Source: Thermoflexibacter ruber (GTDB lineage Bacteria > Bacteroidota > Bacteroidia > Cytophagales > Thermoflexibacteraceae). Taken from it: 64,000 bases of DNA. Of the stretch, positions 47,462-51,471 are shown piece by piece (positions within the stretch are counted from its first letter, which is position 1; every line of letters starts with the position of its first letter). A program made the position numbers and the translations under genes. The notes under the pieces were generated by a model. That model did not search any database, was not told where the DNA came from, and saw only the letters and a program-made list of their open reading frames with translations. The stretch is taken from NCBI RefSeq assembly GCF_900113045.1, contig NZ_FONY01000023.1:1-64000 (forward strand), in the 5' to 3' direction.

Positions 47462-48043
47462 ATGAAAAATATACTCCTTAATTTCATCTCAAATTATATT
47501 TCTCTCACCGAAGAGGAAATGAATGCTATATTTTCTTTGGACATATTTCGTTCAGTAAAGAAAGGTACGATTTTATTAAGAGAAGGGCAAAAATCAAAAG
47601 AAAGCTACTTTGTTCTTAAAGGCTGTATTAGAACCTATTTCCTAATAGACGGAGAAGAAAAAACAACTGCTTTCTATACAGAAATGGAGGCTTTGACTCC
47701 CCCTTGTGTGATAAGCCAAACTCCCTCTGAATATTATGTGAGTTGTTTGGAGGACACTATTCTTGTTGCTTCAAATGCTGACATGGAAGCAGAAATGAAC
47801 AGTAAATTTCCAAAGTTTGAGATTATGTGCAGAAAACTGTCAGAAGAACTATTAGCAAAACAACGGATAGATTTTGATGAATTTAAGACTTCTTCACCCG
47901 AGCAGCGATACCTGAATTTATTGCACAAACGCCCCGACCTTATTCAGCGTGTACCTCAACATCAGTTAGCAAGCTACCTTGGCATAACACCGCAATCATT
48001 GAGCAGACTTAGGGCAAGAATTATGGAAAAAAGCAAGGGCTAA
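47462..48043 (+). CDS. Crp/Fnr-family transcriptional regulator
   Basis: A 193-residue regulator with an N-terminal cyclic-nucleotide-binding-like domain (VKKGTILLREGQKSKESYFVLKGCIRTYFLIDGEE) and a C-terminal helix-turn-helix (HQLASYLGITPQSLSRLRARIM). In Bacteroidota these short members control diverse processes, often without bound cAMP. It is followed after 84 bp by a gene for an exported protein, with a promoter in between. The next 6 kb look like a mobile region, so a local role is possible. Confidence 0.92.
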   Translation: MKNILLNFISNYISLTEEEMNAIFSLDIFRSVKKGTILLREGQKSKESYFVLKGCIRTYFLIDGEEKTTAFYTEMEALTPPCVISQTPSEYYVSCLEDTILVASNADMEAEMNSKFPKFEIMCRKLSEELLAKQRIDFDEFKTSSPEQRYLNLLHKRPDLIQRVPQHQLASYLGITPQSLSRLRARIMEKSKG

Positions 48044-48127: not shown

Positions 48128-48757
48128 ATGCAAAAGAAAATTTTTTGGATTGGACTTGCCTTAGTTTTGGCAAGCAGTTTACAAGTGAATGCACAATATG
48201 CCAAGACCGACAGTACTTACAAGCGGTGGTTTGTAGGGACTTCTCTTTTTGTCATAATGGGTAATTTTGATAAAGAAAATCCACCCAATTTTGCTCAAAT
48301 AGATATAGGTTATCGGATTACAGGAAAAGATATAATTAGATTTTCTCCCAAAACTTGGAAATATGCTTGGCCGAATGGTATTCACCCATTTTTAAACGAA
48401 GCCTACAAAAAGCCCGAAGAAAAATTTCCTGGGTATGTACGTGAGATAGGTATAACAGCGTCATATCAAAGATTTTTATGGAAAGGTTTGTATGCCCAAT
48501 TGGACGTTATGCCTACTTGGCAAATTTTTGCGAATGACAATGGTAACAAAATAAAAGACGGTTTTCAAATTTTTAATTCATACCGTTTGGGTTATCATAT
48601 CAAGCTCTTTAAAGACAAATTTTTCTTCCAACCTTCAATATGTGTAACCCACCGTGCCTATCATACACAATTACCCGATGGGTTTAAGCAGTTGGACGAT
48701 AAGTGGTCTAAGTTTGTCTTTCCTGAACCAGGGTTTAATATTGGTTTTAATTTTTAA
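48128..48757 (+). CDS. Exported hypothetical protein
   Basis: I use the ATG at 48128, which starts a signal peptide (QKKIFWIGLALVLASSLQVNA, cut before QYAKTD). The 209-residue product is rich in aromatic residues, has alternating strand-like segments, and ends FVFPEPGFNIGFNF, typical of an outer-membrane beta-strand end. I do not know a family. Its 3' end reappears in a diverged form (GEKWSKFVFPEP) at 50476-50513 and its last 23 bp lie in the 163-bp repeat. Originally the quinone-oxidoreductase start came directly after it. Confidence 0.65.
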   Translation: MQKKIFWIGLALVLASSLQVNAQYAKTDSTYKRWFVGTSLFVIMGNFDKENPPNFAQIDIGYRITGKDIIRFSPKTWKYAWPNGIHPFLNEAYKKPEEKFPGYVREIGITASYQRFLWKGLYAQLDVMPTWQIFANDNGNKIKDGFQIFNSYRLGYHIKLFKDKFFFQPSICVTHRAYHTQLPDGFKQLDDKWSKFVFPEPGFNIGFNF

Positions 48758-48897
48758 AGAAACAGAAATGAAAGCCGCAATTTGCACAAAATATGGTTCG
48801 CCTGAAGTCATAATCATTCAGGATATACCAAAGCCCAATCCCAGCAAGCAACAAATCCTTGTAAAAATAATGGCAACTGCCGTCAATTCGGGTGATG
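48735..48897 (+). repeat. 163-bp direct repeat, copy 1
   Basis: Identical base by base to 50515-50677 (offset 1780). It covers the last 23 bp of the exported-protein gene and the first 130 bp of the quinone-oxidoreductase frame. Homologous recombination between the copies would delete 1780 bp and restore the two original genes side by side. Confidence 0.95.
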
Positions 48898-48926
48898 GTG
48901 GTAATTTTACAAAAATACCTTACTAA
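48768..48926 (+). pseudogene. Truncated N-terminus of the quinone-oxidoreductase gene
   Basis: This frame begins MKAAICTKYGSPEVIIIQDI, as in the full gene at 50548, and after 43 residues (AVNSGD) diverges into GGNFTKIPY and a stop. It is a duplicated 5' fragment, cut at the left edge of the insert. Confidence 0.85.
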
Positions 48927-48945
48927 ATTTCAATTAAATAAAAAA

Positions 48946-50339
48946 ATGAAGAGATTAATTTTAGCAATTTCACTAATTCTAATTGGACAATTAACATTTG
49001 GACAAGACCGCATCAAAAAACTTGATAGTTTATTGACAGCAATGCACTCAAATGAAAATCTAAATGGCAACATTCTAATCGCTGAAGAAGGCAAAGTTAT
49101 GTATAAAAAAAGCTTTGGAAATGCAGATGAAGATACTAAACAAAAACTAAATGAAAACTCCATTTTTGAATTAGCATCTTGTTCCAAGCAATTTACTGCA
49201 ATGGCAATAATGATACTAAAAGAAAAAGGGAAATTAAATTTAGATGATAATATTTCAAAATTTATTCCTGAATTAGCGAACTACAAAAATATAACAATCA
49301 AAAATCTACTTAATCATACAGGCGGACTGCCTGATTATATGGATTTAATGGACAGCTTGTTTGATAAATCAAAAATTGCAACTAACAAAGACATAATTGC
49401 ACTATTTAGTAAAGTCCAACCCAAAATCCTATTTGCACCAAATACAAAATATGAATACAGTAACACAGGATATGCCTTATTAGCCTCAATTATAGAAAAA
49501 GCATCAGGACAATCCTATGCCGATTTTTTACAAAACAACATTTTTAAACCTTTAAAAATGACAAGGAGCTTTGTTTATACACGAAGATTTGCACCAAAGA
49601 ATATAGACAATTATGCTTTTGGTTATATTTATTCAGACAGTTTAAAAAAATATATTTTACCTGATGACTTGACTGAAACAAAAAGTGTGATTTGGTTAGA
49701 TGGAATTGTTGGCGATGGTTGTGTAAACTCAACCATAAATGATTTATTGAAATGGGACAGAGCCTTATATACAAACAAATTACTTTCAAAAAATGGAATG
49801 AAAGAACTTTTTGAAGCAGCTACTTTAAATGACAAGTCCAAAACTAAATATGGTTTTGGCTGGGTAATTGATGACAATGCCGACTTTGGGAAAATTGTTT
49901 CGCATGGTGGGGTTTGGCCGGGTTATGTAACCTATATTGAAAGACACATCGCAAATGACAAAACTATTATTATACTACAAAACCATGATAATGTATCAAT
50001 TCCATTTAAACATATAAGAAGTATTTTGTATAACAGGTCACATTACCACCAACGAAAATAAGAACTGAAATAAAATTGCCAGTTGAGCAGTTACAGAACT
50101 ATGTTGGAACGTATGAAATTGATAAAGACTTCAAATTGATAATCAAATTAAAAAATGACCAATTATTTGCAGAAGCAACGGGACAGAACGCATTGCCAAT
50201 ATTTGCTGAAAGTGAAACACTCTTTTTCCTGAAAGTTGTGGATGCTCAATTAGAATTTGAAAAAAATGATAAAAATGAAATTGTAAAATTATTTTTACTT
50301 CAGAATGGAAATAGAATAGAAGCAAAACGGACAGAGTAA
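48946..50339 (+). pseudogene. Class C beta-lactamase-like serine hydrolase, frameshifted
   Basis: The first frame (48946-50061) encodes an exported serine hydrolase: signal MKRLILAISLILIGQLTFGQ, the SxxK motif in SCSKQFTAMA, YSNTGYALL as the YxN motif, and FGWVIDDN...VSHGGVWPG. The frame ends early at YHQRK. The continuation is in another frame, open from 50034: KIRTEIKLPVEQLQNYVGTYE, the normal linker and DUF3471 C-terminal domain, running to 50339. A single missing base near 50031-50036 (TATAACAGGTC) explains this. So the gene is damaged, or the sequence has an error. The catalytic domain itself may still fold. Start 48946 is preferred over 48892, since it gives the signal peptide. Confidence 0.85.
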
Positions 50340-50347
50340 AAAACTGC

Positions 50348-50481
50348 TACCAACAGCCGTATTCCAAAAGCGAGGGTGAAGTGCTTCGATTAACAGTTTT
50401 TTCGTATAATTGAAGGGCGGTTTTCCAAATGAACGGTAGTGCTAAAAAGCCCTGCCTTCCCAAAGAGGCAACACGTTGGGC
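50348..50481 (+). other. attC-like palindromic recombination site
   Basis: About 134 bp without coding potential, ending in GTTGGGC (50475-50481), a perfect match to the integron R' core GTTRRRY. It begins with TACCAAC (50348-50354), which fits the RYYYAAC core in 5 of 7 positions. The two ends are imperfectly complementary further inward (CCAACAGCCGTATTCCAAAA against the reverse complement of the right end, CCAACGTGTTGCCTCTTTGG). Size, end motifs and position just after a gene on the same strand match a cassette recombination site. A related sequence lies at 53444-53602. I infer function by shape; no integrase is in the window. Confidence 0.55.
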
Positions 50482-50514
50482 GAAAAATGGTCAAAATTTG
50501 TCTTCCCAGAGCCA

Positions 50515-50677
50515 TTAATATTGGTTTTAATTTTTAAAGAAACAGAAATGAAAGCCGCAATTTGCACAAAATATGGTTCGCCTGAAGTCATAATCATTCA
50601 GGATATACCAAAGCCCAATCCCAGCAAGCAACAAATCCTTGTAAAAATAATGGCAACTGCCGTCAATTCGGGTGATG
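50515..50677 (+). repeat. 163-bp direct repeat, copy 2
   Basis: Identical to 48735-48897. It contains the true start of the quinone-oxidoreductase gene (50548). The 33 bp just before it (50482-50514) are a diverged version of the same 3' end (GEKWSKFVFPEP against DDKWSKFVFPEP), mostly with silent changes. Confidence 0.95.
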
Positions 50678-51471
50678 TACGTACTCGTAGTCTTGATGCA
50701 AAGGGGATTTTGAAATTTTTGATGAGGATAGTTCTGGGTTGGTCAAAGCCAAGAAAACCTATTTTAGGAACTGTATTTTCTGGCATAGTTGAAAGTGTTG
50801 GCAATAAGGTTACTACATTTAAAGCAGGAGATAAAGTATTTGGAATGACGGGGTTTAATTTTGGTGCCCATGCAGAGTATATTGTTGTTAATGAAAATAG
50901 TCATGTTTTACCAAAGCCAGAGAATGCCGGCTTTGATGAAGCAGCAGCCATTGTTTTTGGTGGACAAACTGCTATATATTATTTGCATAAAGCCAAAATA
51001 ACACAAAGACAAAAAGCAAAAGTGTTGATATTGGGTGCAACAGGTTCAGTAGGTATTGCGGCTTTGCAAATAGCCAAATATTATAAGGCTAATATAACTG
51101 CTGTTTGCAGTACCCAAGGAGAACAAATAGTAAATGAGTTAGGGGCAGAGCAAATTTTACTTTACGACAAAGAAGGCATTTTTCAATGTAAAGAAAATTT
51201 TGACATTGTTTTTGATGCAGTGGGTAAATACAGCAAAAATCAATGCAAGCATTTTTTGAACAAAAATGGAATTTTCGTTACCGTAAAAAATGGATATGCT
51301 GCAGAAACCTTGCAACAATTACAACTGTTAAAAAAACTTTTTGAACAAGGGCATCTAAAAGCAGTAATTGATAAAATTTTTTTATTGGAAGAAATTGTTG
51401 AAGCTCATCGTTATGTAGATACAGGACGTAAGAAGGGTAATGTAGTTTTAAAAATTAGTCATCACCAATAA
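50548..51471 (+). CDS. NAD(P)-dependent quinone-oxidoreductase-like alcohol dehydrogenase (zinc-free MDR type)
   Basis: A 307-residue enzyme of the medium-chain dehydrogenase/reductase superfamily. The N-terminal substrate domain starts MKAAICTKYGSPEVI, the cofactor site is LILGATGSVGIAALQIAKYY, and the Zn-ligand cysteines of alcohol dehydrogenases are absent. The frame runs back to 50476 through a fused piece of another gene, but the true start is the ATG at 50548, as in the intact context of copy 1. It is followed after 10 bp by the dioxygenase-like gene, so the two are an operon. Confidence 0.9.
   Translation: MKAAICTKYGSPEVIIIQDIPKPNPSKQQILVKIMATAVNSGDVRTRSLDAKGILKFLMRIVLGWSKPRKPILGTVFSGIVESVGNKVTTFKAGDKVFGMTGFNFGAHAEYIVVNENSHVLPKPENAGFDEAAAIVFGGQTAIYYLHKAKITQRQKAKVLILGATGSVGIAALQIAKYYKANITAVCSTQGEQIVNELGAEQILLYDKEGIFQCKENFDIVFDAVGKYSKNQCKHFLNKNGIFVTVKNGYAAETLQQLQLLKKLFEQGHLKAVIDKIFLLEEIVEAHRYVDTGRKKGNVVLKISHHQ

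Follow-up and report, generated by a model that had tools for sequence, protein, structure and literature searches.

Organization of the locus

Within the window (the whole 64-kb stretch of DNA analysed), positions 48735-48897 and 50515-50677 are identical at 163 of 163 nucleotides, in direct orientation and with a spacing of 1780 nt. They are the sole exact repeats of at least 40 nt in the window, so that the pair far exceeds what chance would produce. In both copies, the 3' end of an exported-protein gene is fused to the start of a zinc-type/quinone oxidoreductase gene (PF08240, PF13602), and copy 1 leaves an oxidoreductase stub of 43 codons followed by 9 extra codons. The repeats enclose a serine hydrolase with a frameshift, a site with secondary structure, and 39 nt of a diverged gene end. 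The repeats, their composite nature, the 43-residue stub and the frameshift had all been named in a preliminary description of the locus, and each was borne out. The features, all on the forward strand, are as follows.

47462-48043 (+): Crp/cNMP-binding regulator gene (PF00027), whose pairing with the exported-protein gene recurs in relatives
48128-48757 (+): intact exported-protein gene, with a GTTGGAC core-like site at its LDDKW codons
48735-48897 (+): direct repeat copy 1, 163 nt, including the 43-codon oxidoreductase stub
48895-50475 (+): putative gene cassette, left end G^ATGGTGGTAAT (expected G^TTGGTGGTAAT), right end G^TT
48946-50061 (+): serine hydrolase (beta-lactamase/DD-peptidase family), C-terminus frameshifted (PF00144, 5.8e-57)
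50076-50339 (+): DUF3471 C-terminal domain of the hydrolase in another frame (PF11954, 1.5e-11), in frame in homologs
50345-50482 (+): attC-like site, R'' CTACCAAC to G^TTGGGC, with decayed arms (model R1, 84.6 bits, rough E-value 8e-19)
50476-50514 (+): decayed 3' tail of a second exported-protein gene copy (GEKWSKFVFPEP) with a 4-nt deletion, from comparison with the loci of relatives
50515-50677 (+): direct repeat copy 2, 163 nt
50548-51471 (+): intact oxidoreductase (PF08240, PF13602)

Site family and cassette arrays

A DNA search with the window site yielded seven further copies in the genome, three of them on a single contig (C102). The aligned copies are conserved through ..CG^TT and divergent beyond, and the site boundary was therefore placed there. 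A structure and covariance model, R1, was built from twelve copies with the window site left out. The structure consists of a 12-bp stem and an inner stem, with 95.6% of cells paired, a covariation score of 0.42 (0.14 when shuffled, at most 0.06 when slid) and 37 double-change cells in the stem (0 of 500 shuffles). With 84.6 bits for the window copy, R1 corroborates the attC-like site of the preliminary description. The latter had let the palindrome end in GTTGGGC; the site itself holds, but it stops at G50475, and the adjoining TTGGGCGAAAAATGG is the exported-gene tail. Rfam holds no family for the site, and searches of plasmid and phage collections gave no match to it.

Across the genome, R1 detected 61 sense sites of about 137 nt at E<1e-3, these E-values being rough, with R1 runs covering Bacteroidota genomes. 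Fourteen contigs carry at least two sites and together hold 55, all 14 being strand-uniform; six sites, including that of the window, are solitary. This 61-site cassette system, together with the nature of the insert ends as cassette boundaries, had been missed in the earlier reading, which is supported in part. Immediately after G^TT, the bases of a cassette agree with the reverse complement of its own R'' box over a mean of 7.4 nt in 45 neighbouring pairs, mostly 9-10, compared with 4.07 for the next cassette and 3.96 after shuffling (maximum of 2000 shuffles 4.76); such agreement is what a circular unit linearised at G^TT would show. Judged from their open reading frames, the cassettes encode a GNAT acetyltransferase, a CAAX protease, methyltransferases, an LD-carboxypeptidase-like protein and restriction-modification genes. 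Among the solitary sites, one (contig C57, L159 4113-4248) follows a phenylalanine-hydroxylase-like gene and another (C56, L160 3917-4053) a restriction-modification gene pair. Flanking direct repeats were found at none of three other solitary sites (C57, C56, C55), so that they are not a rule.

The order comprises 391 genomes, of which 216 contain sites, 184 contain close relatives of the integrase described below, and 142 contain both (74 sites only, 42 integrase only, 133 neither; odds ratio 6, p 1e-16). Among the matches listed for the order, all 35 sites within 30 kb of an integrase are on its strand, and 34 of the 35 are downstream of it. In a sample of the phylum, sites occur in 146 of 376 genomes, with R1 sites in 60 genomes of the window's class; a canonical IntI above cut-off is found in 100 of the 376, only one of which belongs to this class. 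Two sites in genomes of different families (L019 1496-1633 and L012 290-427) are 96.6% identical over 117 bp, which points to recent cassette transfer.

The candidate integrase

No protein in the own genome or family passes the IntI family cut-off. The best IntI-like protein is a 544-aa tyrosine recombinase (contig C75, L152 1219-2853), followed by ssb at the contig end; it scores 220 bits with TIGR02249, below the cut-off of 265, and carries the XerA-like NCBIfam label 'site-specific tyrosine recombinase/integron integrase'. The same integrase-ssb pair stands, in fragmentary form, at the head of the array on contig C19, and in other family members an integrase, with or without ssb, precedes a co-directional array; a one-strand cassette array thus adjoins an integrase, as in IntI-type integrons. 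In a tree that carries long-branch warnings, the integrase falls beside IntI (support 87/82) and XerC/XerD stand apart (99/95), and we conclude with moderate confidence that it is closer kin to IntI than to XerC/XerD. In the alignment, it has the SPLD tail in common with IntI, and the IntI-specific additional domain of about 40 residues is absent. Its N-terminal extension of about 270 residues contains three similar W-x-IP motifs, one of which is kept in shorter relatives, and gives a sub-threshold match to HARP (PF07443, 21.9 bits); this part perhaps binds branched or single-stranded DNA. Directly 3' of the integrase, ssb is found at L152 2896-3258, L173 12597-12932, L174 7677-8039 and L178 2562-2897. 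Host factors discussed for folded attC sites include SSB, and this coupling may therefore be functional.

Content, ends and decay of the insert

In the hydrolase of the insert, the SxxK, YSN and HGG motifs of the PF00144 family are recognisable, and relatives that share about 70-80% identity with it are found in Flavobacterium, Chitinophagaceae and other groups. Homologs keep DUF3471 in frame, and the frameshift near 50036-50045 is thus real relative to them. The left cassette boundary was set from homologous cassettes (L038, L040) and the own R'' box, the right one from the aligned element copies. The hydrolase cassettes of F. enshiense and F. amniphilum begin with the leader G^TTGGTGGCAAT, and the own R'' box predicts GTTGGTAGCA; the window reads G^ATGGTGGTAAT at 48894-48905. 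On this comparison, the left end of the insert lies no more than about 1-2 nt from the expected cassette start, at codon 43 of the oxidoreductase. At the right end, G50475 adjoins TTGGGCGAAAAATGG, where the intact exported gene has TTGGACGATAAGTGG at the aligned position. Judged by these alignments, both ends are cassette boundaries, exact at the right and within about 1-2 nt at the left. The left junction is GATGG instead of GTTGG, so that it is possibly a microhomology join rather than an integrase join. We regard the insert, with a probability of roughly 75%, as a single cassette that belongs to a chromosomal integron-like system in Bacteroidota and lies outside its arrays. An ordinary IS or transposon with a long target-site duplication, which the flanking direct repeats might bring to mind, is hardly credible: no transposase domain is found in the two reading frames of the insert, and 163 bp exceeds known target duplications; by this length the preliminary description had rightly set aside a simple target-site duplication. 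The coincidence of the insert ends with cassette boundaries contradicts this reading as well.

For the window site alone no fold was found, its signal needing the array copies; the hairpin z is +1.31, versus -2.3 to -3.1 in three array copies, and the stable hairpin of an attC site is thus missing from the window copy. With its hydrolase frameshifted and its hairpin lost, the cassette appears to be decaying. Since the site no longer folds, only the 163-bp repeats could now delete the cassette precisely. Excision driven by the integrase is unlikely, deletion through the repeats possible, and any precise loss today would probably proceed by RecA recombination.

The exported-protein gene as proposed landing place

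Homologs of the exported-protein gene were found in 61 of the 391 genomes of the order, with identities of up to 83%. GTTGGAY occurs naturally in the exported genes of these relatives, which carry GTTGGATGATAAATGG or close variants. As TTGGGCGAAAAATGG aligns with TTGGACGATAAGTGG, and with these sequences in the relatives, the cassette was placed in a second exported-gene copy: it appears to sit, joined by its G^TT end, at a core-like TTGG site within this decayed copy. A number of relatives, among them G008 (C177) and G254 (C5), show two matches to the exported-gene region within about 1-3 kb, and extra copies thus seem common. The gene following the exported gene differs in each relative locus inspected.

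For a secondary, attG-like insertion, the flanks should be contiguous with one another; here, oxidoreductase sequence precedes the insert and exported-gene tail follows it. The succession of exported gene and oxidoreductase, sought in relatives as a donor, was found in none of the 391 genomes of the order. As the flanks are not contiguous in any known target, a single clean insertion cannot account for the locus.

Origin of the repeats

As read from these junctions, a G^TTGG site close to the 3' end of one copy of the exported-protein gene would once have received the cassette. Later or simultaneous recombination with an intact copy or allele would then have restored an unbroken gene on the upstream side, with the 163-bp segment remaining to the left and right of the insert. 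An integrase did not make these repeats; our best guess is that they arose when the locus recombined with a further copy or allele. The preliminary description had likewise invoked recombination with a related allele; this stands as source of the diverged tail, relatives having the gene at up to 83% identity, and as the step that made the repeats it is a best guess only.

How such recombination could have duplicated 163 bp can be pictured in several ways. The locus is consistent with homologous recombination on one side only, combined with a microhomology join on the left. In the form of homology-facilitated illegitimate recombination, as described for transformation and conjugation (PMC3240628), a linear fragment from a relative whose exported gene contained the cassette would have paired on the right and been joined at the left through a 2-nt microhomology (TG), whereby 163 bp were duplicated. 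The right side is indeed homologous, with 39 nt at about 79% identity followed by complete identity, and the left sequences GGTGA[TG] and GT[TG]GTGG suit end joining; however, this route does not account for the position of the left join, no more than 1-2 nt from where the cassette starts, and no donor genome was found among the 391. We consider it a tentative proposal, with the odds somewhat against it, and compatible with the cassette reading, to which it would add a way of making the repeats. Its main rival is Campbell-type integration of a circle, composed of cassette, exported-gene tail and the 163-bp segment, into a single 163-bp copy, which would generate the repeats in one step. This predicts precisely the observed order of intact gene, repeat, cassette, diverged tail, repeat and intact oxidoreductase, and such cassettes are expected to circularise. 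Yet the circle would need 163 bp without a single difference from the host next to 39 nt of only about 79% identity, no such circle was found, and no second close match to the hydrolase DNA is present in the genome, so that we hold this entry to be unlikely.

The repeats could also stem from the assembly, by joining of two strains or molecules via the 163-bp sequence. Contig ends share exactly 127, 95 and 94 nt, which is typical of short-read graphs, and from the pair sharing exactly 127 nt the draft assembly probably derives from such a graph; the repeat may exceed k. Such a graph would not distinguish the insert from a loop of unknown copy number, or from a free circle together with an empty site. 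The repeat, however, stands on both sides of the hydrolase, which two linear loci cannot give, only a loop or free circle; moreover, the contig measures 89 kb and the window is free of N. An artefact is, on balance, quite improbable.

Comparison with known integrons

Like IntI integrons, the system has one-directional arrays of single-gene units, each ending in a structured imperfect palindrome, with R''/R' boxes that end in AAC and start with GTT, a G^TT cut, an R'' box complementary to the cassette's own start, and a nearby tyrosine recombinase with the IntI-like SPLD tail. It differs in that the integrase is devoid of the IntI-specific additional domain, falls under the TIGR02249 cut-off, points in the same direction as the array and often has ssb next to it, and in that the core match extends over about 10 nt, not 7. 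The integrase encoded beside ssb would recombine the sites, probably as folded single strands. The sites have the paired R''/R' boxes, the G^TT cut (its position being inferred) and the conserved structure without conserved sequence of attC. Canonical attC sites, however, have unpaired central spacers of about 5 nt on each side and extrahelical bases, whereas here the R box is separated from the stem by 1 nt on one side and by 5 nt on the opposite one, and all 12 bp of the stem are paired. Integrase-less arrays of integron cassettes are known as CALIN.

Cassette insertion outside integrons, at attG sites, is described by Loot et al. (2024), as related in PMC12901181. The window resembles this in having a lone cassette at a G^TT-type site within an ordinary chromosomal gene, but involves another integrase branch, and one flank is rearranged by the 163-bp duplication. 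Surveys relying on IntI and standard attC models found almost no integrons in Bacteroidetes; complete ones are reported for Salinibacter ruber (PMC9024848), of the same phylum, and were, unlike the R1 sites, detected by IntI and standard attC models. The IntI-specific domain is held necessary for IntI-mediated recombination (PMC9668308).

From these comparisons, many Bacteroidota probably harbour a separate integron branch, with an IntI-related, often ssb-coupled integrase lacking the IntI-specific domain, own folded sites of about 137 nt with 10-nt cores, large arrays, sites that are nearly the same in different families (up to about 97% identity over 117 bp), and cassettes shed into ordinary genes. 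Judged against the published open-licence literature, the system is provisionally considered novel. Should it prove active, a widespread cassette exchange would exist that is a major phylum's own, and folded single-stranded sites may be used by a recombinase without the IntI-specific domain. The window copy would further indicate that cassettes also leave the arrays and lodge in genes.
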